Shown here: positions 19,603-62,805 of the stretch, piece by piece | How the letters are laid out: each line of letters begins with the position of its first letter | Numbering within the stretch: the stretch's first letter is position 1 | Assembly: GCA_902781515.1 (NCBI GenBank) | Contig: CACZJU010000008.1 | Location: forward strand, 28,756-92,755 | Direction of reading: 5' to 3' | Length of the DNA: 64,000 nucleotides | Source of the DNA: an uncultured Bacteroidales bacterium | GTDB lineage: Bacteria; Bacteroidota; Bacteroidia; Bacteroidales; Bacteroidaceae | Translations under genes and position numbers: made by a program | Notes under the pieces: generated by a model | The model's database searches: none | The model's input: only the letters and a program-made list of their open reading frames with translations | Told to the model about the DNA's origin: nothing

Positions 19603-20430
19603 TTCTACCTCCTTGAACCCATATCGTCGCATCTGTCCAGCCTCATCCTCTATTATCAAATGCCCCGTAGGCTCCACATCCACTATTCGTCCACAGAAAT
19701 CGCCCTTTTCATCATGGAATCTTGCCATTTCGCCCCTTCGATACAGATGGCTGAGATACATCTCATGCAGTTCCTTTTCGCGTCCCTGTTCCGTCCACTC
19801 ATAATATCGGGTGAAGTTTTCCATTATCTGTTCCAACACGAAACGGCGCTCCAACGTCTCTCCTGTTATTAGAGCCAATGATGTTGGTTCAGCCACCTTG
19901 CGAACACTCTTTTGCGAGTCATCTATTCGTGTCCTGTCGAAAGCAAATTCAGTTTGGTTGATGTTAATGCCTGCCCCCATTACGCAGCGCTCTATCCTAT
20001 CGCCATGTAGCTCATTCTCAATCAGCATTCCGCACAATTTCTTGTCGCCCCAATAAATGTCGTTGGGCCACTTAATGGTAAATGGTAAATTGAAAATTGA
20101 AAATTGAAAATTAAGTTTTTGTGGGACTAGCCCTTCCAGAATTGAGAGGGAAAGGATTTCGCTGAGGACGAACATGCGATCGGCAGGGATGTGACGCGGA
20201 TGAACGAGCATACTGAATAGCAGGTTCTTTCCACGCTCCGACTCCCAACCATTGGCACCAGCTCCACGTCCAGCCGTCTGATATTCAGCCGTCACCAGCG
20301 TTATTTGCCTCTCTGGTCCCACAGGTCTGTAACTGCGCAGGAAATCGTTTGTACTCGTAACATCGCCCAGTTCCACCATCCGGAACCAAGGCGAATCGTC
20401 CAAACAAAAGTGCCTCTCCGTCATTTCCAT
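19561..20430 (-). CDS. birA: biotin--[acetyl-CoA-carboxylase] ligase
   Basis: This protein attaches biotin to the biotin carboxyl carrier protein. It lacks an N-terminal HTH, so it is a ligase without the enteric repressor function. Motifs: TSTNDFLRSY, the biotinyl-AMP loop QTAGRGAGANGWESERGKNLLFS, IKWPNDIYWGDKKLCGMLIE and VMGAGININQTEF. Two oddities are visible. First, KLNFQFSIFNLPF before TIKWPND is encoded by TTGAAAA tandem microrepeats (about 20085-20115) and is a probable insertion. Second, the last 13 residues, ITPSRPPRGAAIK, are encoded by the right end of the G/C-rich repeat element, so the original stop was probably lost. The core fold should be intact. Confidence 0.93.
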   Translation of the reverse strand: MEMTERHFCLDDSPWFRMVELGDVTSTNDFLRSYRPVGPERQITLVTAEYQTAGRGAGANGWESERGKNLLFSMLVHPRHIPADRMFVLSEILSLSILEGLVPQKLNFQFSIFNLPFTIKWPNDIYWGDKKLCGMLIENELHGDRIERCVMGAGININQTEFAFDRTRIDDSQKSVRKVAEPTSLALITGETLERRFVLEQIMENFTRYYEWTEQGREKELHEMYLSHLYRRGEMARFHDEKGDFCGRIVDVEPTGHLIIEDEAGQMRRYGFKEVEITPSRPPRGAAIK

Positions 20431-21667: not shown

Positions 21668-22216
21668 TTACCTATCACTATCCGCAGCCATAGGCATTTG
21701 CATTTCATTTTCATCAAGGCTCTGATATGAAACAACCTTTGCAGCGCGGTCCTGCAGCCAGATATGATTGAGGGTAAAGGCTATTGAATCCAACGTTGTT
21801 TCTCGCTTCGATGGCTTTAACTCACATTCCCAAACGGTGATGCAATGCCAGCCCATTTCAGCCAACTTGCGCTGCTCCTCCTTATCCCGTTCCTTGTTCC
21901 TCCGAATCTTCGCCACCCAGAACTCCCTATTCGTCCTCGGAATCTTACAGCACTCCGAATTATCAATTATCCATTTTCCATTATCCATTTGTGGCTCTGC
22001 CACATTGTGTCCATGCCAAAAGCATCCGTTTATAAAGATGCAAGTCCTGTATTTCCTTAATACCAAATCTGGATGCCCAGGCAGCCGCTTATAATTCAGT
22101 CTGTATCTAAAACCTCTCTTCCACAGTCCTTTGCGCACAATCATTTCAGGCTTTGTGTCCTTCGACCGAATCGCCGCCATATTTTTGCTGCGCTGCTGTG
22201 GAGAGAGTTTGTCCAT
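21668..22216 (-). CDS. vsr: very short patch repair endonuclease
   Basis: Vsr nicks beside T:G mismatches made by deamination of 5-methylcytosine. The frame is open from 22240, but a promoter -7 element overlaps that region, so the ATG at 22216 (MDKLSPQQRSKNMAAIRSKDTKPE) is preferred, giving 182 residues and the usual Vsr N-terminus. Motifs: MIVRKGLWKRGFRYRL, LPGHPDLVL (catalytic Asp), CIFINGCFWHGH, TNREFWVAKIRRNKERD and WHCITVWECEL. No cytosine methyltransferase lies next to it, which is unusual. Within the protein, residues near QMDNGKWIIDNSE are encoded by an ATTATCCA-type microrepeat (about 21958-21993), a likely insertion in a loop. Confidence 0.9.
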   Translation of the reverse strand: MDKLSPQQRSKNMAAIRSKDTKPEMIVRKGLWKRGFRYRLNYKRLPGHPDLVLRKYRTCIFINGCFWHGHNVAEPQMDNGKWIIDNSECCKIPRTNREFWVAKIRRNKERDKEEQRKLAEMGWHCITVWECELKPSKRETTLDSIAFTLNHIWLQDRAAKVVSYQSLDENEMQMPMAADSDR

Positions 22217-22236
22217 AAGTTTATGCCAATTTTGCA

Positions 22237-22245
22237 GCAAATTTA
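22237..22245 (-). promoter_or_regulatory. -7 promoter element of vsr
   Basis: Minus-strand TAAATTTGC lies about 20 bases upstream of the ATG at 22216, with a TTTG 23 bases further upstream. It overlaps the alternative ATG at 22240 and so decides the start. Confidence 0.6.
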
Positions 22246-22324
22246 CGAATTGTATCTTGAATTATTAACAAAAATGGTAAAAATAATAAATGCCCAAATA
22301 TTTTTATTTTTCGTATAGCCGGAG

Positions 22325-22333
22325 TATCTTTGC
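22325..22333 (+). promoter_or_regulatory. -7 promoter element of the orphan gene at 22344
   Basis: TATCTTTGC ten bases before the ATG at 22344, with an AAAGG between. It rules out the upstream in-frame ATG at 22290. Confidence 0.6.
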
Positions 22334-22343
22334 GAAAAAAAGG

Positions 22344-22925
22344 ATGAACAGAGAAAAAAAACTTAGCACTTTGGAGAAAAATATCCAAGAGGCTGTAACC
22401 GCTTACAAGGATATCATTGAGAAATGGTTGAGCGAAGTGGAAGCTCCGCTTAGTTTATATGACAAATCAAAGAATCAGGCAGGCATTAAGATTTTAATGG
22501 CTGAAGAGGATACCATAAATATCCTTATCCTAGACATGATAAAATTTGACAAAAGTACTGGAAATATTCTTGTACACCAATCGTTCGAAGAATCAGAAGA
22601 TAATTCACGATGGATTCCAGTCTCTATACTTGGCGACAAGGCTATTGAGATATACCAATCCATCTTTTGGCTTGATAAGGATGATTTGATTATTGTGGAT
22701 GGTGACACACATTCAGGGACAGCAAATATGGTATGGAGCTTTTCAAGCAAAGCTTTATTTTTTATAAACGTGGATGGGCACATTGTTGACACAGGATGGT
22801 ATTATGACGGCATTGACCATTTCATTGGCTGTAATGGTGAATTTGCAGTTCACAAGTATGACTGGTCCATAGCGATGCGTGAAATTGATGAACATGAAGA
22901 GGAGATGGAAGAATACGATGATTAG
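22344..22925 (+). CDS. hypothetical protein, unrecognised
   Basis: The start is set by the promoter just upstream (MNREKKLSTLEKNIQEAV). The 193-residue product is predicted soluble with no signal peptide. It has a helical N-terminus (1-35), a beta-rich middle (NILILDMIKFDKSTG, GDKAIEIYQSIFWLDKDDLIIVDGD, ALFFINVDGHIVDTGWYYDGID) and a very acidic tail (DEHEEEMEEYDD). I do not recognise the family. Codon use is more A+T-rich than in the flanking housekeeping genes, like the adjacent HNH and Abi genes, which suggests shared recent acquisition. It is convergent with the HNH gene, with 8 bp between their ends. A defence-related or immunity-type role is possible but unsupported. Confidence 0.7.
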   Translation: MNREKKLSTLEKNIQEAVTAYKDIIEKWLSEVEAPLSLYDKSKNQAGIKILMAEEDTINILILDMIKFDKSTGNILVHQSFEESEDNSRWIPVSILGDKAIEIYQSIFWLDKDDLIIVDGDTHSGTANMVWSFSSKALFFINVDGHIVDTGWYYDGIDHFIGCNGEFAVHKYDWSIAMREIDEHEEEMEEYDD

Positions 22926-22933
22926 TATAAACG

Positions 22934-23704
22934 CTAAAGATGATGTTTATATGCCTCGAAGTGCTGTGCCAAAAACTCTTGTTCTGGCGAAAACTTCTCT
23001 GGCATTATGATATGTCGTCCTTGCAAGTTGTGAAGATACTTCAACGTTGTTTCGTCCTTGGCTCCGCTAAGCATCTCATCAGAAAGAACAATCTCGTAAT
23101 CAGGTGTTATCGCCATTAGATATTTGTCATAAGCACGATGGAAAGTTGGAGTCATACAAAGTCCGTTATTGGGGTTCGTGCGATTCTTTACGTCGTCTGC
23201 CCAACTTGATATGTGACATGCTTCAAGCAATGAAGTATTAGTTATACCAGTTATACAACATTGGTTGAGGTAAGCCGTTAGAACCGCCTCACGGAAAAAT
23301 TTCTGGTTAATACGCTGGCGGACTATTACCTCTCGTTCCTTTCCCTCTGGAATATTTCGTGTGTCAATCGTAGCAAAGTCTTCAACGGTCTTGCCCGCGC
23401 GTTCAGCAAACAAACGCTCGCTTTCATATGCTAGTTTCTCCGAGTTACCCCAAAACTCATTCCAGATAGACTCCTCTGCCTTGCCACCATTGGCAAGTCC
23501 TGTGATGCCTTTTGCCTTCAAAACGGGGTCGAAACGCCCAAAATTTTCTACCTTCATCTTTAGCGCAACAGGAGACCTGCCTATGAGAGGGGCGTATTTC
23601 TGAATAATCGGATGACATTCCTTCACATCTTTGAAAGGAATCTTGCAATATACATTGAGAGCCATAATTAACTGCTCGCGAGTCCATGGTTCTTTCTTTG
23701 CCAT
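22934..23704 (-). CDS. HNH endonuclease domain protein
   Basis: A 256-residue protein with a C-terminal HNH nuclease module: QCCITGITNTSLLEACHISSW, then NPNNGLCMTPTFHRAYDKYL, giving the Cys pair, the catalytic His (ACHI), Asn (NNGL) and second His (FHRAYD). This is the HNH_2-type arrangement of proteins annotated as putative restriction endonucleases. The N-terminal ~90 residues (EPWTREQLIMALNVYCKIPF, IGRSPVALKMKVENFGRFDP) form a helical, possibly DNA-binding region common in this group. No methyltransferase is adjacent. The gene lies 11 bp downstream of the Abi gene and probably shares its transcript. Confidence 0.85.
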   Translation of the reverse strand: MAKKEPWTREQLIMALNVYCKIPFKDVKECHPIIQKYAPLIGRSPVALKMKVENFGRFDPVLKAKGITGLANGGKAEESIWNEFWGNSEKLAYESERLFAERAGKTVEDFATIDTRNIPEGKEREVIVRQRINQKFFREAVLTAYLNQCCITGITNTSLLEACHISSWADDVKNRTNPNNGLCMTPTFHRAYDKYLMAITPDYEIVLSDEMLSGAKDETTLKYLHNLQGRHIIMPEKFSPEQEFLAQHFEAYKHHL

Positions 23705-23715
23705 ATTATTTGTAG

Positions 23716-24378
23716 TTACCGGATGCGATCGATTTTGTTCAACACATCATCGGGCTTCTCTGCCCACTGAATCACATTGTCAGGATGCTGCCCCATAGAA
23801 TCGATGTACTCACATATTAATTGATAGTGTCTGCGGGCAAAAGCTGTACTGATATTGCCAGAGCCATCGAAGCAAATAGGTTCATGATGAGCAATACGAT
23901 TGCGAAACTCGCGAATATGAGTGAGGTCTTTGTATACATCAGCCTGGTTCTTACCTTTCCGTTTGTTTGGGAAGATTTGCAAGAGAGTCTTACCACCACG
24001 TTTGTATCTTTTCTTTGAAAATAATTTGGTCCAAAATCCCATAGTCAGCGAGGCAACCATCTTGTCGTTGTTATATAAGCCACGCTTTCTGTAGTCTGCT
24101 TCCGTCTGTCTTATCTCATCCTTATTAAATTCAAGCAACTTATCACTGTCAGCTTGGTTCACTATCCAATCAGAATCGGAGTAATAAGCAACATAGTGCT
24201 CGTTGATTGCATTTCTCAGCATAACTTCAAATATATTCAAAACGCCATAGAAACGCTGGCATAGTCTGAGGTTATAGCGATACAGTTGCATTGTCTTCCC
24301 ATTTTTACCAGTACAAGCATTCTGATATTTGCGCATTCTGGGCACCGAATATAGCTTTTGACTCGTCTTAAAGTCCAT
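23716..24378 (-). CDS. Abi-like abortive infection protein (Abi_2, HEPN-type)
   Basis: The 220-residue protein matches the Abi_2 (AbiD/AbiF) family: LYRYNLRLCQRFYGVLNIFEVMLRNAINEHYV at the start, MVASLTMGFWTKLF in the middle, and DLTHIREFRNRIAHHEPI. The last contains R-N-R-I-A-H, the RX4H motif of HEPN ribonucleases. Members of this family abort phage infection in lactococci, probably through RNA cleavage. Upstream is the long palindrome-rich gap; a possible minus-strand -7 element (TATATTTG, near 24573) would give a long leader. The gene is A+T-rich relative to its neighbours outside the island. Confidence 0.85.
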   Translation of the reverse strand: MDFKTSQKLYSVPRMRKYQNACTGKNGKTMQLYRYNLRLCQRFYGVLNIFEVMLRNAINEHYVAYYSDSDWIVNQADSDKLLEFNKDEIRQTEADYRKRGLYNNDKMVASLTMGFWTKLFSKKRYKRGGKTLLQIFPNKRKGKNQADVYKDLTHIREFRNRIAHHEPICFDGSGNISTAFARRHYQLICEYIDSMGQHPDNVIQWAEKPDDVLNKIDRIR

Positions 24379-24821: not shown

Positions 24822-24945
24822 CAGTCATTAGTCAATAGTCATTAAGGATTTTTGAAAGGGGAAAAAGTGCCAATATATTAAATATATAATATATTGATGA
24901 AAAATGGTATCTATTTTTTTCTTAATGACTATTGACTATTGACTG
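24822..24945. repeat. inverted repeat with tandem 7-mer arms
   Basis: The left arm is AGTCATT-AGTCAAT-AGTCATT and continues TAAGGA; the right arm (24921-24945) is its near-exact reverse complement, TTAATGACT-ATTGACT-ATTGACTG. They enclose about 73 bp of A+T-rich sequence that itself contains AATATATT twice. No promoter motif is evident inside. A similar structure with 8-mer arms is at 38994-39170. Confidence 0.75.
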
Positions 24946-24964
24946 CGTCAGAGCAGTTAACCTA

Positions 24965-25183
24965 AGGTTAATATAACCTATGCCGACAAGTTAAGTTAAC
25001 CTGTTGACGAAGGTTAAGTTAACCTATGGCAATAAGACGGGCAACCTTTGGCGATAAGACGGGCAACCTTTGGCGATAAGGTATAGAGCCCTCTAGCGGA
25101 GGGATAGTATCCCTATGCGCATAGGGATAGTAATCCTTCTGGGGAAGCGATAGTATCGCGTCTCGACAGACGATAGTATCGCT
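24965..25183. repeat. variable-palindrome array A, 22-23 bp period
   Basis: Ten units follow one another with centres at about 24972, 24995, 25018, 25041, 25063, 25085, 25107, 25130, 25153 and 25176. Most are 11-15 bp palindromes with different arms: AGGTTAATATAACCT, GTTAAGTTAAC, AGGTTAAGTTAACCT, AGGGATAGTATCCCT, GCGATAGTATCGC, CGATAGTATCG. Units 4 and 5 are an exact 22-bp duplication with only weak symmetry. Linkers of 7-9 bp resemble TATGGCAATA or TTGGCGATA. The array lies between the 3' end of ald and the gap upstream of the Abi gene. Two of its palindromes recur identically in array B2. Confidence 0.8.
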
Positions 25184-25218
25184 CCCTTTTCCGCGTGGTA
25201 ATCCATACAGATTCTTTG

Positions 25219-26319
25219 TTAGAGGGGATGGTAGGGGAGGTTGAAGACGTCGGCAACGGCTTTGAAAACTACCTTTCCATCGACGATATTGAGGCCTTTG
25301 GCAAGTGCGGGGTCATCCTTGCAGGCTTGCTGCCAACCTTTATCGGCTAGGGCTATGGCATAGCGCAGAGTGGCGTTGGTGAGTGCCAGCGTGGAGGTGT
25401 TGGGTACAGCTCCAGGTATGTTTGCCACGCAGTAGTGCAGGATGCCCTCCTCAGTATAGACGGGGTCGCTGTGTGTGGTGGGACGCGAGGTCTCGAAACA
25501 GCCGCCTTGGTCGATGGCGACATCCACAAGCACGGTGCCAGGCTCCATGAGTCGCAGCATTTCGCGAGTGATGAGATGTGGAGTCTTGTCGCCAGGCACG
25601 AGAACGCTGCCTACAACGATGTCCACCGTGGGCAGCAACTGGCGTATGTTGTGTTCAGAAGAGTAGAGGGTGTGGACGTTGGCAGGAGTTTCAAGGTCGA
25701 GCTGACGCAGACGGGGAAGGGAGATATCGGTGATGGTGACTTCTGCTCCCATGCCTGCTGCCATGCGTGCTGCAGCCTCGCCGACTACGCCACCACCAAG
25801 AACGAGCACACGGGTGGGATTGACGCCTGGCACACCACTAATGAGCTTGCCCTTGCCACCCTTGGTCTTTTGGAGGTAGTAAGCTCCGTTGAGCGCTGCC
25901 ATACGACCTGCCACCTCGCTCATGGGCTGCAACAGAGGCAGCGAGCCATTGGGCAATTGTACGGTCTCGTAGGCGAGACAAACGGCTCCACTCTTGAGCA
26001 TTGCATCGGTGAGTTCGCGTTCGCAGGCGAAATGGAAATAGGTAAAGAGCAACTGTCCCTTGCGCACCAATTTGTATTCCGGCTCTATGGGTTCCTTCAC
26101 CTTCACAATCATGTCTGCCTCGCGATAAACATCCGCAGCAGTGGGCAGGATGCTGGCTCTGGCTTTGATGTACTCGTCGTCGGGAAATCCGCTACCTTCG
26201 CCTGCTGTGTGCTGGACGAAGACTTCGTGTCCGCGACGTGTAAGTTCTGCAACTCCCGCAGGGGTCATGCCCACACGGTTCTCATTGTTTTTAAACTCTT
26301 TTGGAATTCCGACTTTCAT
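25219..26319 (-). CDS. ald: alanine dehydrogenase
   Basis: Ald reversibly converts L-alanine and NAD to pyruvate, ammonia and NADH. The 366-residue protein has the N-terminal signature [20 protein letters not shown], substrate-binding [26 protein letters not shown] (Lys and catalytic His), the NAD-binding [26 protein letters not shown] and [21 protein letters not shown]. Length and motifs are typical. It is a single gene on the minus strand, with the palindrome array just after its stop codon. Confidence 0.96.
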
Positions 26320-38242: not shown

Positions 38243-38887
38243 GTGAAAAAATGGGTTTTCATATTACTGATGCTGTTTCCCACGCTTCTGGTGGCTCAGA
38301 ACAAAGAAGACGAGGGAATGGAGGTGCGCGATATGGTGGGAGAGAAATTCAAGAGCGCACGCAACCAGACGTGGTACTGGGCAGGCAAAGACTATATCTA
38401 TGAGGGCGACACCATCTGGACTATCCTCATGCCCGAAATGCCTGTTTACAAGCCTCTGATATTCAAGAACAAGAAGCAGCAGATGAAGTACAACCGACTG
38501 GTGTACAACGTCAAGAAGGTACTGCCCATAGCACAGCAAGCCAACCAGATGATTAAGGAGACCTACGAAGTGCTGGAAGCCCTGCCCGACAAGAATGCCA
38601 AGCAAGCCCACATCAAGCAAATTGAGAAGGAGATAATGCGAACCTACAAGCCGGAGATGAAAAAGCTTACCTACTCACAGGGAAAACTCCTCATCAAACT
38701 GGTTGACCGCGAGTGCAACCAATCTGGCTACGAGGTCATCAAGGCATTCATGGGACCAGCCCGTGCCACCTTCTACCAAATATTCGCCTGGACCTTCAAG
38801 GCAAGCCTCAAGAAAGAATACGATCCAGAGGGTGACGACAAACTCACCGAGCGCGTCGTCCGCCAAGTCGAAGCCGGCATCCTCTAA
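38243..38887 (+). CDS. DUF4294 exported protein
   Basis: Starting at GTG 38243 (read as Met; MKKWVFILLMLFPTLLVAQ), the 214-residue product has a signal peptide and the features of DUF4294, a Bacteroidetes family: GDTIWTILMPEMPVYKPLIFKNKKQ, the RLVYNVKKVLPIAQQANQMI helix, KQAHIKQIEKEIMRTYKPEMKKLTYSQGKLLIKLVDRE and TFYQIFAWTFKASLKKEYDP. Its role is unknown. No in-frame ATG lies close upstream, and the promoter sits directly before the GTG. It is divergent from the exported-protein operon. The first palindrome of array B1 begins 12 bp after the stop codon. Confidence 0.88.
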   Translation: MKKWVFILLMLFPTLLVAQNKEDEGMEVRDMVGEKFKSARNQTWYWAGKDYIYEGDTIWTILMPEMPVYKPLIFKNKKQQMKYNRLVYNVKKVLPIAQQANQMIKETYEVLEALPDKNAKQAHIKQIEKEIMRTYKPEMKKLTYSQGKLLIKLVDRECNQSGYEVIKAFMGPARATFYQIFAWTFKASLKKEYDPEGDDKLTERVVRQVEAGIL

Positions 38888-38898
38888 CCTATCGTTAC

Positions 38899-38956
38899 AA
38901 GGTCTAGACCTTATTGCCATAAGACCTGCGTCTTGTTGCCGTAAGACCTAGGTCTT
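38899..38956. repeat. variable-palindrome array B1, 22 bp period
   Basis: Three 14-bp palindromes, AAGGTCTAGACCTT, AAGACCTGCGTCTT and AAGACCTAGGTCTT, start at 38899, 38921 and 38943, exactly 22 bp apart, joined by 8-bp linkers ATTGCCAT and GTTGCCGT. The AAG...CTT ends are constant while the inner arm bases change together (GTC/GAC to ACC/GGT). Confidence 0.82.
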
Positions 38957-38993
38957 ATTTTCAGCGGGGTGAAACGAGGTGGGGAGGAGGGAA

Positions 38994-39170
38994 CCTTCAC
39001 AGATTCACAGATTCACAGTTTATTTTTTGAACCCCCTCCTCTCAACCTGCGTGGGGAGCGTTAATTTATGTTAATATTTATATTAATATATATAAAAATA
39101 TATAGAATAAGAGGAAAAGCAAGAAGTACCCCCTCGAAAATAAAACTGTGAATCTGTGAATCTGTGAAGG
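38994..39170. repeat. inverted repeat with tandem 8-mer arms
   Basis: The left arm (38994-39026) contains TTCACAGA-TTCACAGA-TTCACAG then TTTATTTT; the right arm (39137-39170) is the reverse complement with one extra base. They enclose about 110 bp: a half-copy of the G/C-rich element end (AACCCCCTCC ... GCGTGGGGAGCG, 39030-39060) and a very A+T-rich stretch (TTAATATTTATATTAATATA). The same plan as 24822-24945 but with a different arm unit. Confidence 0.75.
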
Positions 39171-39311
39171 GTGTAGCCCAGCATGCAAAACCATGCTTCA
39201 GAATGTCAGCCGAAATCTGGATACGTTAATGAGGTTTGGGGACTTTCAGGTGAGGTTTTTTGCGATTACAACTATTTTCAGACAAAACAGATTATTATTA
39301 TCTGTGCCCAT

Positions 39312-39416
39312 AGGTTAATATAACCTAATGGCAAAGGTTAAGTTAACCTATTGCATAAGGTACTAGAACCTATCGCCACAAGTTCTAAAACCTCCTGCAA
39401 TAAGGACTAGTACCTT
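39312..39416. repeat. variable-palindrome array B2, 22-23 bp period
   Basis: Five units with centres at about 39319, 39342, 39364, 39387 and 39409: AGGTTAATATAACCT, AGGTTAAGTTAACCT, AGGTACTAGAACCT, a weaker AAGTTCTAAAACCT and AAGGACTAGTACCTT. The first two are identical to units in array A at 24.97-25.03 kb. Linkers (AATGGCAA, ATTGCATA, ATCGCCAC, CCTGCAAT) share a TGGC/TTGC/CGCC character with array A and B1. Confidence 0.8.
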
Positions 39417-39426
39417 GTGATTACCC

Positions 39427-39593: not shown

Positions 39594-40133
39594 TTAGTGG
39601 AGTTGTTTGAAGAACTCCCAGATGACGATGCCGGCTGTGACGGAGACGTTCATTGAGTGCTTGGTGCCGTACTGGGGGATTTCTATGCAACCGTCGCACA
39701 TATCTACTACCTGCTGCTGCACACCCTTCACTTCGTTACCTAAAATTATAGCAATTTTGGGCAATTGACAATTGACAATGGATAATTGATAATTATTAAG
39801 CATTGTGCTTCCTTCGCATTGCTCGATGGCAAGGACAGTGTAGCCTTGCTGACGAAGCCAAGTGACGCAGTCTTCGGTATGCTCGAAATATTTCCAGTCA
39901 ACACTGTCTTCTGCTCCGAGGGCTGTCTTGTGAATCTCTGGATGGGGAGGACGAGCAGTTATGCCACACAGACACACACCTGAGAGACGGAAAGCATCGG
40001 CAGTACGGAAAACGCTGCCTACATTGTAAAGCGAACGCACATGATCGAGCACCACCACAAGCGGAGTCTTAAGGCTCTCCTTATACTCATCGACAGTCAT
40101 GCGACCCATCTCCAAAACGCTAAGTTTCCTCAT
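39594..40133 (-). CDS. SpoU/TrmH-family RNA 2'-O-methyltransferase
   Basis: A 179-residue SPOUT methyltransferase. Motif 1 is LKTPLVVVLDHVRSLYNVGSVFRTADAF, motif 2 IAIILGNEVKGVQQQVVDMCDG, motif 3 IPQYGTKHSMNVSVTAGIVIWEF; together they form the SAM-binding knot with the catalytic Arg and Asn. The target (tRNA or rRNA) cannot be told. Between EGSTML and KIAIILG, residues NNYQLSIVNCQLP are encoded by ATTGACA/ATTGATA microrepeats (about 39764-39800), another in-frame repeat insertion. The gene reads away from the DnaA-box-rich gap that follows. Confidence 0.92.
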   Translation of the reverse strand: MRKLSVLEMGRMTVDEYKESLKTPLVVVLDHVRSLYNVGSVFRTADAFRLSGVCLCGITARPPHPEIHKTALGAEDSVDWKYFEHTEDCVTWLRQQGYTVLAIEQCEGSTMLNNYQLSIVNCQLPKIAIILGNEVKGVQQQVVDMCDGCIEIPQYGTKHSMNVSVTAGIVIWEFFKQLH

Positions 40134-40546: not shown

Positions 40547-41542
40547 ATGTTGACAAAAGAAGAATGGACAGCTAAGGGATATGTGGATGAACCCATCCCA
40601 GAGGGTATTGACCTGAAGGCCGAAATACGTCGTATGGCTCGCGAGAAGAATGCAGTCATTATGGCTCACTATTATGTCAGCGGCGAGATTCAGGACCTTG
40701 CCGACTTTGTTGGCGACTCGCTGGCTCTGGCTCAGCAGGCAGCAAAGACCGATGCCAAGATAATAGTGATGTGTGGTGTGCACTTCATGGGTGAAACGAA
40801 TAAGATTCTTTGTCCAGACAAGACAGTTCTGGTGCCCGACCTCAATGCCACATGCTCTTTGGCTGAAAGTTGTCCTGCCGATGAGTTCAAGAAGTTTGTG
40901 GAGGCTCATCCCGATCATACTGTCATCAGTTATGTCAATACCACTGCTGCCACAAAGGCCGTTACTGATGTAGTTGTAACGAGCGGCAATGCACGTCAGA
41001 TAGTAGAGTCACTGCCCAAGGATGAGAAGATAATCTTCGGACCTGACCAGAACTTGGGTAATTACATTAATTCTATTACAGGCCGACAGATGATTCTGTG
41101 GAATGGTGCCTGTCACGTTCACGAGAAGTTCTCTCTTGAGAAGATACTGGAACTGAAGCGTCAGCATCCGGAGGCAAAGATACTGGTGCATCCTGAATGC
41201 AAAGGACCTGTGGTGAGAGTTGCCGATAAGGTTGGCAGTACTGCTGCTTTGCTGAAGTTTGCCATTAACGACGACGCTACAGAGTTCATAGTTGCTACTG
41301 AAAGCGGAATATTGCACGAAATGCAGAAGCGCTGTCCTGAGAAGACATTCATTCCTGCTCCTCCTAACGACAGTACTTGTGCTTGCAACGAATGCAACTA
41401 TATGAAGCTGATTACTCTTCAGAAGCTCTATAACTGTCTGAAGTATGAGTGGCCTCAAGTGGAAGTGGAGCCTGAAATTGCTGAAAAAGCCATTCGCCCC
41501 ATCAACCGTATGCTCGAAATCTCTGCCCGCCTCGGCCTCTAA
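40547..41542 (+). CDS. nadA: quinolinate synthase A
   Basis: NadA condenses iminoaspartate with dihydroxyacetone phosphate to quinolinate and carries a [4Fe-4S] cluster. The 331-residue protein has NAVIMAHYYVSGEIQDLADFVGDSLALAQ, the cluster cysteines in VMCGVHFMGET, NGACHVHEKF and the C-terminal CACNECNYMK, and ATESGILHEMQKRCPEKTFIPAPP. Its partner nadB lies 10 kb away in this window rather than next to it. Its 5' side is the putative origin region; a tandem TCTCAACTCTAAAC microrepeat follows the stop. Confidence 0.97.
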   Translation: MLTKEEWTAKGYVDEPIPEGIDLKAEIRRMAREKNAVIMAHYYVSGEIQDLADFVGDSLALAQQAAKTDAKIIVMCGVHFMGETNKILCPDKTVLVPDLNATCSLAESCPADEFKKFVEAHPDHTVISYVNTTAATKAVTDVVVTSGNARQIVESLPKDEKIIFGPDQNLGNYINSITGRQMILWNGACHVHEKFSLEKILELKRQHPEAKILVHPECKGPVVRVADKVGSTAALLKFAINDDATEFIVATESGILHEMQKRCPEKTFIPAPPNDSTCACNECNYMKLITLQKLYNCLKYEWPQVEVEPEIAEKAIRPINRMLEISARLGL

Positions 41543-41595
41543 TCTCTCAACTCTAAACTCTCAACTCTAATCTCTCAACTCTAAACTCTCAAACA
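41543..41595. repeat. tandem CTCTAAA/CTCTCAA microrepeat
   Basis: About seven 7-bp units (TCTCAAC, TCTAAAC, TCTCAAC, TCTAATC and so on) fill the whole gap between the nadA stop and the GTG start of the antiporter gene. The same unit appears in the ResB-CcsA coding linker (4216-4256) and at 46486-46518. Confidence 0.75.
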
Positions 41596-44612: not shown

Positions 44613-46518
<1,906 letters not shown>

Positions 46519-46520
46519 CT

Positions 46521-48611
46521 TTACTTCACTTCCTCCCACTTCAGGACTGCGCCGTTACGACGACCTGGGTCAGCACCTGTGTAGTCCATAGAATAGGGAC
46601 TGCCTGTTGTAGGACTCTTTCCTAAATATCTGTGATTGCGAAGCGACAAGAGCATGAACTGTCCGTCGAGATAGTCCTGCCAAAGAAATTCCTCAGCTTT
46701 TTCTAAATTGTTAGTCATACGTACATCGCCTGCAATACCAAAGCCAGAGCACATCAGGTATCGGCCGTCTTCACACTGCACCACTACCTTTCCTTGTCCA
46801 CGGTCAATGAGGCGGAAGTGTGTCAGCTTCGAATCGCGGTCAGTATCGTAAAGTACTCCATGAGTTGTAGCCTCAGCAAAGCGGTTATTGGCAAGATTGC
46901 GAATGCGGAATGTCTTACCATATGGAATATTCTTTGAGCGGTCGGCTTTGGGTTCATCTACTGTGAAGTTATCGAACTCAGCATATCCGCCTTCGTTTCC
47001 TTTATGATTGAAGGCAAATAGAGCATGACGTGAGCCTTGGAACGAAATAAGTTGATATGAGAGCACCATTTCAGGACCTACCTGTGTGAATGTGCTTCCA
47101 TCTATTGAATATTCGTAGTGTCCCTTATCATTATCATAGTCACCTACAAAACGGAGATACAATTTCAATGGATTATTAATAGCTACGTCTGTTGTATCGT
47201 TCGTCAATTGTTCGAAGCAACGCAATGTAAGTTGCTTACCATCTTTCACTACACCTATCCACGAACAAGGCACATTGATGTTGCCCAACCCAGCCACATC
47301 ACCATCTTTCATTCCAGCTGTGAAGAGCTCTACTGTGGCAATGCTGGTGGGACCAATGACACGTTGTGTAAGACTGTTGCGTGCCCACATCAACTGTTCG
47401 GCAGGTAGAGCTGTCAGGCGCAGACGACCTTTCTTCAGACTCCATTTCTTGTCATCTGGATTATGGTTCCATTGCCACACACGTCCCAACTGTTTTCCAT
47501 CGAAGTTCTCACAGCGGTTGTATGGAGCGTGTCTGGTTGGTTGCGACTCAGTAGCAACAGACGGAATATTGGGCTTGAACCAGGTGCGTGGAGCACGACC
47601 AAGATTTCCTTCAAGTCCAAGCATAGGCCATCCATCCTTCCAGATTATTGGAGCAAGTGTTGTTGTGCGTCCGATAGAGTGGAAATCCATCATCAGCAGA
47701 GCCCACCACTGTCCTGTCTGGTCTTCTACAATACCACCCTGATGAATGTTGGTACAAGCTGTAGCATCGAAGTTAGCTGGAGATATGCCGAATTTGGTAC
47801 CGTCGGGCATTATACGACCTCTGACTTGCGTCATAGGAGCAGGATGATAACCAAAGGTTTCATCGGCAGTAATGGTAATAGTTTCGTATGGTCCCCAGAT
47901 ATTCTTTGAGCGGGAGCACAAAGTACGTCCGTTTGGTTTATAGTCTGTGCTGATGAGATAGTACATACCATTTATCTTGTACATATGGTGTCCCTCACCC
48001 ACAGCATTTCCTTCAGGAATGATTGTGCGTTCTGTTTCCTCTTTAGGACCACTCATATCAGGCTCTAGTTCAGTACATTTTACTTCTCCGTAGCCGTGAA
48101 TGGCATATATTTTACCATCATCGTCGAAGAGAACTGAAAGGTCATAGATGCGCCCCTTCATATTGTGGTGTTCCCAAGGACCGCGTATATCTGTTGCCGT
48201 ATAGCATTGCAGGCCCTTACCGTTAATGTTGGAGAAAACGTAGAACTTGCCGTTGGCATATCGTATTGCAGGTGCCCATATACCTTGTCCGTATATCTCC
48301 TTGTGATTGCGAAGCGAGAATGCATCGTCATCGAAGTCGAAACGTGGAAAACAATATGAGATATTTTCCCAGTTGACAAGGTCGCGTGAGTGTAAAATAA
48401 CAAGTCCGGGTACACTGTGCATAGTGGTTCCTGCCAGGTAGTAATCATCGCCTACACGTAGAATATCTGGGTCTGAAAACTCATCGTAGAACAGAGGGTT
48501 AGTGAATGTACCATTACCATTATCAGCCGTCCACGACTGTTGTGCATTGATGGATAGTGTGCAATTAGCCAAGCACAGCAATGCAATAACTATTTTTCTA
48601 TAATTCTTCAT
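46521..48611 (-). CDS. secreted GH43 glycosidase (beta-xylosidase/arabinofuranosidase type)
   Basis: A 696-residue exported protein (signal peptide MKNYRKIVIALLCLANCTLSINA). The five-bladed GH43 domain occupies ~30-330 with catalytic Asp in FSDPDILRVGDDYYLAGTTM, pKa-setting Asp in RIYDLSVLFDDDGKIYAIHG and acid Glu in NAVGEGHHMYKINGMYYL. Residues ~365-555 resemble the concanavalin-like C-terminal domain of GH43 xylosidases (WQWNHNPDDKKWSL, GDYDNDKGHYEYSIDG, AEFDNFTVDEP). The last ~125 residues (TFRIRNLANNRFAE, VVVQCEDGRYLMCSGFG, LLSLRNHRYLGKSP) look like a fascin- or RICIN-like carbohydrate-binding module. It would debranch or trim arabinoxylan with the xylanase downstream. No SusC/SusD pair is seen. 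Confidence 0.92.
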   Translation of the reverse strand: MKNYRKIVIALLCLANCTLSINAQQSWTADNGNGTFTNPLFYDEFSDPDILRVGDDYYLAGTTMHSVPGLVILHSRDLVNWENISYCFPRFDFDDDAFSLRNHKEIYGQGIWAPAIRYANGKFYVFSNINGKGLQCYTATDIRGPWEHHNMKGRIYDLSVLFDDDGKIYAIHGYGEVKCTELEPDMSGPKEETERTIIPEGNAVGEGHHMYKINGMYYLISTDYKPNGRTLCSRSKNIWGPYETITITADETFGYHPAPMTQVRGRIMPDGTKFGISPANFDATACTNIHQGGIVEDQTGQWWALLMMDFHSIGRTTTLAPIIWKDGWPMLGLEGNLGRAPRTWFKPNIPSVATESQPTRHAPYNRCENFDGKQLGRVWQWNHNPDDKKWSLKKGRLRLTALPAEQLMWARNSLTQRVIGPTSIATVELFTAGMKDGDVAGLGNINVPCSWIGVVKDGKQLTLRCFEQLTNDTTDVAINNPLKLYLRFVGDYDNDKGHYEYSIDGSTFTQVGPEMVLSYQLISFQGSRHALFAFNHKGNEGGYAEFDNFTVDEPKADRSKNIPYGKTFRIRNLANNRFAEATTHGVLYDTDRDSKLTHFRLIDRGQGKVVVQCEDGRYLMCSGFGIAGDVRMTNNLEKAEEFLWQDYLDGQFMLLSLRNHRYLGKSPTTGSPYSMDYTGADPGRRNGAVLKWEEVK

Positions 48612-54279: not shown

Positions 54280-54310
54280 TTAAATGTAAAATGTTAAATG
54301 TCAAATGTAT

Positions 54311-61483: not shown

Positions 61484-62770
61484 ATGGCACAGGAAAGAAA
61501 TTACAGATTCGAGACTTTGCAACTCCATGTAGGACAAGAGCAAGCAGACCCCACGACTGACTCTCGTGCAGTTCCCATCTATCAGACTACAAGTTACGTG
61601 TTCCGTAACTCGCAGCACGCAGCCGACCGTTTCGGTCTTCGCGATGCAGGTAACATCTACGGTCGCCTGACAAACTCTACTCAAGGTGTGTTCGAAGACC
61701 GCGTTGCCGCGCTTGAGGGAGGTGTGGCTGGTTTGGCTGTTGCCAGTGGTGCGGCTGCCATCACCTATGCTCTCCAGAACATTGCCCAAGCTGGTGACCA
61801 CATCGTGGCTGCAGACAACTTGTATGGTGGTTCCTATAACTTGATTACGCACACGCTGAAGACACAGGGTGTCGAGAATACCATTGTGAATGTCAACGAC
61901 CTGCAGGCACTTGAAGATGCTATCCGTCCCAACACGAAGGTGATTTATGCCGAGGCGTTTGGAAATCCCAATTCCGATGTGTTGGATATCGAAGGTGTGG
62001 CTGCTGTGGCTCATCGTCACGGACTGCCCCTCATCGTTGACAACACGTTTGGTACTCCCTATCTGATTCGTCCGCTTGAGCACGGAGCAGACATTGTGGT
62101 ACATTCTGCCACAAAGTTTTTGGGCGGTCACGGTTCATCGCTGGGCGGTGTGATTGTTGACGGAGGTAAATTCGATTGGAAAGCCAACCCTGACAAGTTC
62201 CCCTCCTTAGCGAAGCCAGAGCCCTCATATCATGGGGCAGTGTTTGCCGATGTGGCTGGTGCAGCGGCTTTTGTGACTCGCATCCGTGCCGTCATCCTGC
62301 GCGATACGGGTGCTGCCATTTCGCCCTTCAATGCGTGGATTCTCTTGCAGGGAGTGGAAACATTGAGTCTGCGTGTTGAACGTCACATCGAGAACACACT
62401 GAAGGTTGTTGAGTTCCTGAAGAACCATCCGAAGGTGTCTAAGGTGAATCATCCTTCGCTTGAGAGCCACCACGACCACCATCTCTACCAGAAGTATTTC
62501 CCCAACGGCGGAGGCTCGATTTTCACCTTCGAAATCAAGGGTGGACAGGAAGAAGCTTGGAAGTTCATCGATAGATTGCAGATTTTCTCGTTACTGGCTA
62601 ACGTTGCCGATGTGAAGAGTCTTGTGATTCATCCCTACACGACTACTCACTCGCAGCTCTCGCCCGAAGAACTTGCCGAGCAGCACATTACTCCCTCCAC
62701 CATTCGTTTGTCGATTGGTACCGAACACATCGACGATATTCTGGAAGACCTAAGTCAGGCACTTAATTAA
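61484..62770 (+). CDS. metY: O-acetylhomoserine aminocarboxypropyltransferase (sulfhydrylase)
   Basis: MetY is a PLP enzyme that makes homocysteine from O-acetylhomoserine and sulfide, or cysteine from O-acetylserine. The 428-residue length distinguishes it from the shorter MetB/MetC. Motifs: YRFETLQLHVGQEQADPTTDSRAVPIYQTTSYVF, YGRLTNSTQGVFEDRVAALEGG, ASGAAAITYALQNIAQAGDHIVA and the PLP lysine in VHSATKFLGGHGSSLGG. cysK follows 97 bp downstream with its own promoter. The N-terminal MAQERNYRFETLQLH is standard for the family, supporting the start. Confidence 0.95.
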   Translation: MAQERNYRFETLQLHVGQEQADPTTDSRAVPIYQTTSYVFRNSQHAADRFGLRDAGNIYGRLTNSTQGVFEDRVAALEGGVAGLAVASGAAAITYALQNIAQAGDHIVAADNLYGGSYNLITHTLKTQGVENTIVNVNDLQALEDAIRPNTKVIYAEAFGNPNSDVLDIEGVAAVAHRHGLPLIVDNTFGTPYLIRPLEHGADIVVHSATKFLGGHGSSLGGVIVDGGKFDWKANPDKFPSLAKPEPSYHGAVFADVAGAAAFVTRIRAVILRDTGAAISPFNAWILLQGVETLSLRVERHIENTLKVVEFLKNHPKVSKVNHPSLESHHDHHLYQKYFPNGGGSIFTFEIKGGQEEAWKFIDRLQIFSLLANVADVKSLVIHPYTTTHSQLSPEELAEQHITPSTIRLSIGTEHIDDILEDLSQALN

Positions 62771-62796
62771 TTACGAATTAAGAATTAAGAATTAAG
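62768..62796. repeat. AATTAAG tandem microrepeat
   Basis: ACGAATTAAGAATTAAGAATTAAGATT: 7-bp units right after the metY stop. A second one, AACCGTAA units, occupies 62822-62864 just before the cysK ATG. Confidence 0.7.
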
Positions 62797-62805
62797 ATTT
62801 ATTTG

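Follow-up and report, generated by a model that had tools for sequence, protein, structure and literature searches.

Palindromic tandem arrays with a 22–23-bp period and changing words in an uncultured Bacteroidales bacterium and its relatives

What keeps a row of palindromes evenly spaced and self-complementary when the letters of its arms change from one unit to the next? The question is raised by an array in the window, as the whole 64-kb stretch of DNA analysed here is called, in which a first-pass annotation had claimed about ten palindromes at a period of 22–23 bp and had offered stem-loops, a copying mechanism or a dimeric protein as possible causes. The arrays of the window, their companion hairpin elements and the adjoining gene are as follows.

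24822 to 24945, no strand assigned: AT-rich hairpin element adjoining the first array, with 25-bp arms, 96% complementary, of AGTCAAT/AGTCATT heptamers and 74 nt between them
24957 to 25187, no strand assigned: ten-unit array with a period of 22–23 bp, in which A dyads (centres 24972 to 25176) alternate with B dyads (the 8-nt spacers between units)
25219 to 26319, minus strand: alanine dehydrogenase gene (ald; PF01262, PF05222), context outside the repeat, its 3' end 32 bp from the window array
38886 to 38960, no strand assigned: second array of the same family, with AAGGTCTAGACCTT, AAGACCTGCGTCTT and AAGACCTAGGTCTT
38994 to 39170, no strand assigned: hairpin element between the second and third arrays, with exact 28-bp arms CCTTCACAGATTCACAGATTCACAGTTT (an octamer three times over) and 121 nt between them
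39290 to 39420, no strand assigned: third array, with CAGATTATTATTATCTG, AGGTTAATATAACCT, AGGTTAAGTTAACCT, AGGTACTAGAACCT and AGGACTAGTACCT

A search for chains of palindromes 21–24 bp apart placed ten units of the first array where they had been claimed (centres 24972, 24995, 25018, 25040.5, 25062.5, 25085.5, 25107, 25130, 25153 and 25176), and put its beginning slightly earlier, at 24957 instead of 24965. The arm words along it are GGTTA/TAACC, GACGGGC/AACC (poor), GGTATAGAGCCC, GGGATA/TATCCC and GCGATA/TATCGC. That most units are palindromes needs some qualification. The pairs formed, out of six scored in each unit, number 6, 5, 6, 3, 3, 4, 6, 4, 5 and 4, so that five units are good (5–6), three moderate (4) and two poor (3), the poor ones being the two GACGGGC...AACC units. 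A second dyad lies between units, where complementary arms flank the 8-nt spacers, e.g., CCTAT..TGCC..ATAAGG. The array has a chain score of 16, whereas 1000 dinucleotide shuffles averaged 4.9 and reached 12 at most. This score is used for the figures here in place of a stricter palindrome score, which recovers three of the units. Confined to three-base windows of spacing, the score was 16 at 21–23 bp, 15 at 22–24 and 11 at 23–25, and 7–10 in the remaining seventeen, with shuffle maxima of 6–9. Folded as single-stranded DNA, the array has a z of −6.4 relative to 200 shuffles.

The second array starts at the stop codon of the upstream plus-strand gene, and the border of the third, TTTTCAG(G/A)CAAAACAGAT, is common to paralogous arrays. 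The hairpin element at 24822–24945 has a 97% copy at G000:C27:7630, G000 being the source genome. The ald protein has Prevotella-labelled records among its nearest relatives, at 84% and 82% identity, and the genus is probably Prevotella. Beside the array region, at 21668–24378, genes for a Vsr endonuclease, an HNH endonuclease and an Abi-like (Abi_2/HEPN) protein lie close together and form a small defence-like island.

The source genome (2.46 Mb in 46 contigs, 86% complete) was searched with the array and its surroundings, which gave 106 BLAST matches at E ≤ 10. It holds at least 49 array runs, 7.2 kb in all, at 39 places (the window and 38 fetched stretches, L046 being without an array), a lower bound since 40 of 62 candidates were scored. 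The counts of arrays are also too low because repeats break assemblies; seven of the 39 places lie near contig ends. In the chain search 37 loci yielded 246 units (there was no chain in L009), with 110 distinct 14–15-bp cores, and the unit classes include AGGTTAASTTAACCT, AGGTTAATATAACCT, AAGACCTAGGTCTT, AAGGTCTAGACCTT, AGGTTCTAGAACCT and AGGGATACTATCCCT, plus hybrids with GCATTACTA. Six perfect pairs are present in 79 units, among which there are 12 different arms; allowing one mismatch sorts these into six groups, and allowing two joins them almost into a single chain. Within one and the same array, clearly unlike words can be neighbours. The border TTTTCAGGC is common to eleven paralogous arrays, which differ from one another by whole units, and some arrays occur in pairs around hairpin cores. 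By heuristic ORF calls on these incomplete drafts the arrays of the source genome are intergenic with one exception, which overlaps an ORF call, as do two of seven loci in a related genome, G022. At L021:2783-3004 and L036:2541-2782 a short element that contains a GCTTGCGTAGCG-like hairpin splits the palindrome of array units; inspection by eye places the same kind of element next to arrays in L019, L032 and L043 too.

The claim that pairing is preserved while letters change can be examined in the 246 units. Their arms are complementary at offsets 1 to 7 in 66, 86, 76, 81, 87, 76 and 91% of units, and at offset 8 in 31%. With right arms dealt anew among the units, the corresponding values were 37, 30, 44, 38, 67, 49 and 85%, and 33% at offset 8. 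None of 500 deals reached the observed pairing at any of offsets 1–7, and the 176 distinct units gave the same outcome. Centres were chosen with offsets 2–7, which favours pairing there, offset 1 having no part in the choice; related copies are not independent, and the deals are therefore a guide and yield no probability. This co-variation, joined by the occurrence of other words at the same period across the sampled genus, strongly supports the claim.

One way to obtain paired changes is compensatory selection on RNA, the arrays being rows of hairpins at transcript 3' ends that serve as terminators or as stability or processing elements. Their strong predicted folding agrees with this, as does their position. 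At 58 array places (39 in G000, 12 in G029, 7 in G022; simple ORF calls) the neighbouring genes are convergent at 20, divergent at five and codirectional at 26, the other seven lying near contig ends, compared to 18, 35 and 56 among gaps of at least 150 bp in 40 genus stretches (p = 2e-4 for convergent vs. divergent). The median distance of source-genome arrays is 115 bp to a gene 3' end and 240 bp to a 5' end. The scarcity of arrays between divergent promoters would fit promoter avoidance no less than a role at 3' ends. Selected RNA hairpins should tolerate G·U more than A·C; however, in 16 arrays with codirectional neighbours the sense strand has 26 G·T and 27 A·C mismatches, and all arrays taken together have 61 and 59. 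The ratio of the two varies among arrays beyond expectation (p = 0.009), and copies of one variant in both orientations could account for such heterogeneity. Spacers also flip. In G029 an asymmetric spacer (ATGTGCGT or its reverse complement) switches orientation inside 6 of 12 arrays; in the source genome 39 adjacent spacer pairs resemble each other in the same orientation and five in inverted orientation, with a null maximum of 3 for the latter, and one of the five looks like a false case due to low complexity. A scan of the 64-kb window with Rfam 15 gave no matches above the gathering score. The mismatch balance and the spacer inversion, which is strong in G029 and weak in the source genome, point to DNA. 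RNA stem-loops, among the causes first put forward, are disfavoured and must now be considered very improbable.

In relatives the layout recurs with other words. A class-blind detector (log-odds palindromes 21–24 bp apart) was run on sequence unselected for arrays. Twenty stretches from 20 genus genomes (366 kb) contained six chains scoring at least 15, one of which (L195:8066) looks coding, and 14 further stretches (258 kb) contained five, these coming from nine genomes of which four had been picked for an earlier match to the window's word somewhere in them. The total is 11 chains in 34 stretches (624 kb), compared to none in three shuffled copies. The words read are GTTTCTGCAGCAGAAAC in G022, CGGGACGCGTCCCG in G035, GGACTCAAGAGTCC in G029, TTCATCGACCGATGAA in G021, GAGTTACCTAACTC in G002, AAGACGCGCGTCTT and AGCGTTGCAACGCT in G001, TGAAAATNAATTTTCA in G013, AACCAGTGACTGGTT in G017 and, in a stretch chosen by a match, AAGACTTAAGTCTT in G028. 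One chain, real by eye (ATCTCCAGGCTGGAGAT, L281), came from 19 loci (364 kb) of two further genera in the family. No chains were found in other families of the order, either in 18 loci with usable letters (255 kb; a set of 20 minus L206 and L210, which have none) or in 20 loci (400 kb), nor in 43 named loci around ald (L047–L089; 422 kb). Three shuffles of each set gave 1 and 0 chance chains for the other-family sets, 2 for the ald loci and 1 for the other genera.

The words of G022 and G029 each occur at 14 or more places in the home genome, 14 candidates having been scored in each. Among 61 genus genomes the G022 word matches two, its home and weakly G061, and the G029 word its home only; the window's own word matches five of 61 relatives and kin, the source genome included, at E ≤ 0.001 and partly via the hairpin core. 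A relative of the G022 word in G061 (L221–L229), by eye TTTTCTGCTGCGGAAAA, makes a possible pair in which to watch vocabulary change. The existence of the arrays, as first claimed, survives both the comparison with shuffled sequence and that with other genomes, where the period is the same. Spacing and symmetry kept with other words in the sampled relatives suggest a DNA process that replaces letters and keeps the layout.

The period can be assessed more closely. With the spacing fixed at each single value from 14 to 35 in the 34 genus stretches, six stretches, each from a different genome, had chains of at least 15 at 22 bp and one stretch did so at 21; spacings of 18, 27 and 33 gave one such chain apiece (a single locus accounting for both 18 and 27), and the remaining spacings none. 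Tandem Repeats Finder, which is palindrome-agnostic, placed 31 of 62 non-coding genus repeats at exactly 22 bp, with three at 21 and two at 23; the sample was 848 kb (the 34 stretches with 28 valS and 28 glyA loci, leaving out the source genome and two array-picked loci), and periods of at least 12 outside long open frames were counted. Per 100 kb, the genus has 4.25 non-coding repeats of 21–23 bp, other genera of the family have 2.74, and other families together with the ald loci have 0.93. In non-coding pieces of the genus (60 kb) 9-mers recur 39 times at distance 22, the median over distances 10–60 being 3, and 20 times at 44. The family's other genera have 16 at distance 22 vs. a median of 0, and other families have no such peak (7 vs. 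2).

Could all this be chance or a low-complexity property of intergenic DNA? Short two-copy repeats do arise randomly, but none of the 1000 shuffles equalled the window array, no chains of 15 or more were found in the three 624-kb genus shuffles, and shuffled non-coding pieces had no 9-mer recurrence at 22 bp. The probability left to chance is negligible.

Not every repeat of this period is a palindrome. Among 26 non-coding 21–23-bp repeats of the genus, stems of at least 6 number 12 where shuffled units would give 0.8, and stems of at least 5 number 14 where they would give 3.4, in a test that allows loops; a loop-blind symmetry test had given 8 of 26 significant. Of 13 genus repeats with other periods, three have a stem of at least 6 (0.6 expected), and in other families and the ald loci a stem of at least 5 is present in 8 of 12 other-period repeats (2.7 expected) and a stem of 6 in none of ten at 21–23 bp. 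Symmetry is thus frequent, yet neither obligatory nor limited to the 21–23-bp period. One 20-kb stretch of G012 (L174) contains five tandem repeats of 21–22 bp, most with short or no dyads. The length of 22 bp is probably set by geometry (two helical turns with one arm per turn in alternating orientation), by a bound protein or by the step of copying, and a dimeric or filament-forming protein bound over two turns is the natural guess for the ruler.

Arrays with different words flank the same genes in different genomes, namely valS (G000 and G001), a gap beside recO (G000 and G029) and glyA (G000 and G017). Inheritance in place seemed to be indicated. Chains of at least 15 are present in 2 of 30 valS loci, both pre-picked, and in 3 of 30 glyA loci, two pre-picked and one new (G013), in counts that scan whole loci and in which the assignment to the 5' or 3' side is unreliable. 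Among the 56 loci that had not been picked (224 kb) there is thus a single new case, no more than expected from the rate in unselected sequence (10 in 624 kb), and positional conservation is unsupported. Similarly, the window array is not conserved beside ald, since none of 80 ald loci reaches a chain score of 15; chains in high-GC ald loci were due to chance and disappeared after composition correction. The conservation at orthologous loci for which the first-pass annotation had looked therefore finds no support at valS and glyA, and no array stands beside ald in the nearest relatives scanned.

A second hairpin family accompanies the arrays (window 38994–39170 and 24822–24945; L283–L303 and L131), with an AT-rich inner part between inverted arms of tandem 6–8-mers. 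The inner part has matches in 13 of 61 genus genomes, the source genome included. Among 12 copies read, eight have exact arms of 21–29 bp, two have shorter ones (17 and 14) and two have none. The arms differ among copies and genomes (TTCACAGA, TTTAACAG, GTTCCA and TGTATCAGT, each three times over), yet left and right agree. Tandem repeats of 7 bp (and 14 bp) and differing sequence are scattered through the window at 310–341, 2321–2353, 20087–20112, 39762–39794, 41537–41592, 46489–46523, 54282–54309 and 62769–62801, and may be arms or remnants of this family.

Sites for a dimeric DNA-binding protein would account for several of these properties. Half-sites one helical turn apart in alternating orientation would line up a filament on one face of the DNA, and the specificity of the protein and its word would diverge together by species. 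A period fixed at 22 bp across different words, dyads both within and between units, and a separate vocabulary in each genome tested are in keeping with this proposal, as is the innermost pair, which is complementary in 66% of units and needless for a hairpin loop. Such a protein would need to bind all twelve of the different perfect arms. A loose specificity might allow this, given their near-continuity at two mismatches; however, the six groups at one mismatch and the adjacency of different words in single arrays argue against a strictly sequence-specific protein. About half of the 22-bp repeats in the genus lack a long stem. No candidate protein was found, and among the genes flanking the 58 places none belongs to a family shared by arrays of several species, the one exception being a group of seven, six of which are paralogues in the source genome. 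This explanation, also among those first offered, keeps a real if lesser chance of being right.

Alternatively, a transposase may have spread the arrays as non-autonomous mobile elements of MITE or REP type, with the palindromes as its recognition hairpins. There are dozens of intergenic copies, the TTTTCAGGC border is conserved in the eleven paralogues, G029 arrays are flanked by related inverted sequence, arrays are paired around hairpin cores, and BrickBuilt, discussed below, provides a precedent. A REP-like element would have a RAYT-type Y1 transposase (PF01797) as its partner, and of 139 genus genomes 26 have a match to this family with E ≤ 1e-10. The first three RAYT loci examined each had a 22-bp repeat nearby. 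Repeats of 21–23 bp, or of two to three times that period, occur at 12 of 30 RAYT loci (L366–L368, L370–L396) vs. 34 of 185 unselected pieces (p = 0.014), and vs. 11 of 56 unpicked gene loci (valS 5 of 28, glyA 6 of 28; p = 0.07). Without the multiples the count is 11 of 30, with p = 0.030 and 0.12, respectively, and when double-period places are omitted it becomes 9 of 30 vs. 31 of 185 (p = 0.13). A RAYT-type transposase is, however, absent from G000, G001, G002, G012, G021, G028 and G029 (76–86% complete), seven of the 11 genus genomes with 22-bp arrays, in a search that was positive in its E. coli control; in G012 most 22-bp repeats are short-stemmed. The word of G022 is absent from the 3.3-kb locus of that genome's RAYT gene, and by eye there is no target duplication at the one pair of hairpin-core copies compared. 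RAYT as a requirement is rejected by its absence from the seven array genomes, but there may be a weak association near RAYT genes. Spread by a transposase is an unlikely account of the arrays.

The first-pass annotation knew of no named repeat family of this form. CRISPR arrays have near-identical repeats and unique spacers of about 30 bp, whereas here the repeats are variable and the spacers 8 nt long. Two known systems are related in form (PMC2817692; PMC4596501), and to that extent the statement needs correction. The nearest in kind are the REP/BIME elements, described in the accessible text as high-copy extragenic palindromes that are clustered at regular spacing in alternating orientation, are species-specific, and maintain the palindrome by complementary changes (PMC2817692; PMC3733652). 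The present arrays share with them the high copy number, the extragenic clusters (49 runs at 39 places), the species-specific words and the complementary changes. They differ in a unit period fixed at 22–23 bp and in not requiring a RAYT gene. Of the REP tags, counted anywhere in the unit and not only at an end, GTAG or CTAC is present in 14 of the 246 source-genome units (shuffled mean 37.5) and none of nine words from relatives, and CGTC or GACG in 24 of the 246 (shuffled mean 25.1) and three of the nine.

The other system is BrickBuilt, a minisatellite/MITE of Porphyromonas gingivalis, which the available part of its description presents as a 23-nt intergenic tandem repeat in 19 dispersed copies with imperfect units (PMC4596501). 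Order Bacteroidales, intergenic habit and a 23-nt unit are thus common to both. However, BrickBuilt as there described has one consensus word, AGAYCATARTATCCTCTCRTRTG, and weak symmetry, 0.04–3.35 per unit in idealised copies vs. 6.7–7.2 for three idealised array words; it also has a leader, a tail and IS-like terminal repeats. In the arrays a border is conserved on one side of eleven paralogues. Membership in BrickBuilt was rejected: when 295 genomes of the order, the source genome included and P. gingivalis perhaps not among them, were searched for 22 nt of its repeat, none matched exactly, and the arrays' own words differ. No description of such a repeat class in Prevotella was found in the literature searched, largely without subscription journals. 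We file the arrays among the extragenic palindromic repeats, as a variant that differs in its fixed period of 22–23 bp.

The best reading, to which we assign a probability of a little under one half, is that the arrays are a DNA repeat of REP/BIME kind whose symmetry is maintained through hairpin-templated copying. The window array would then belong to a non-coding, DNA-level, extragenic palindromic minisatellite, tandem at 22–23 bp and specific to the species or its closest kin. Units left single-stranded during replication or repair would fold into small hairpins, and a polymerase might then switch its template from one arm to its partner, or from one unit to the next, so that an arm is overwritten with the reverse complement of its counterpart. 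Such a switch would occasionally invert a spacer. Slippage and conversion could spread units within an array and carry whole arrays to other places, with letters drifting and pairing being restored. In the portions of two reports that were available, template switching between the arms of inverted repeats leads to arm homogenisation and spacer inversion (PMC8604942), and creates and restores hairpin stems in one event (PMC8794818). Hairpin-templated copying is taken as likeliest because arm homogenisation and spacer inversion are both seen here; the arrays also resemble the products described in those portions in stems that stay perfect through multi-base changes. A copying mechanism that preserves pairing is accordingly, in view of the arm co-variation and spacer inversion, the best fit among the causes originally suggested. 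The published cases, in the text available, concern single inverted repeats and RNA genes, whereas the present arrays are tandem, of fixed period and genome-wide. Template switching alone does not predict the fixed 22-bp period.

The hairpin nuclease SbcD (TIGR00619) is above cut-off in 2 of 25 genus genomes (G002 and G015 among G000–G024) and in 8 of 16 genomes of other families, with weaker matches below cut-off in more; the genus genomes are 61–92% complete, less than most others, so that some of the absences may be gaps. Loss of SbcD would ease the retention of hairpins and is, as a cause, suggestive only. Against it, G002 has both SbcD and an array, and several other families lacking SbcD show no array in the little that was sampled.

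A wider version of hairpin-templated copying, tentative and on balance doubtful, is that the genus, and more weakly the family, runs a sequence-agnostic process that builds 22-bp repeats and restores their symmetry, so that the ruler is inherited and the letters are not. The companion hairpins would come from the same machinery, which might be a polymerase primed by fold-back or a filament protein with a pitch of two helical turns. REP/BIME elements are elsewhere reported, in the accessible text, to bind IHF, gyrase or DNA polymerase I (PMC2817692; PMC3733652), and by analogy with them the arrays may have a REP/BIME-like effect on the cell at gene 3' ends.

Paired changes in the two arms of a stem are usually taken as proof of selection on RNA structure. 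Here, in sampled genomes of one genus, they are found in DNA repeats that apparently do not act via RNA and are laid out by a fixed 22-bp ruler. The arrays may explain assembly breaks, as at the places near contig ends in the source genome, and they offer species-specific markers. They also lend themselves to testing to what extent template switching can imitate structural selection, and what determines the length of the unit in bacterial minisatellites.
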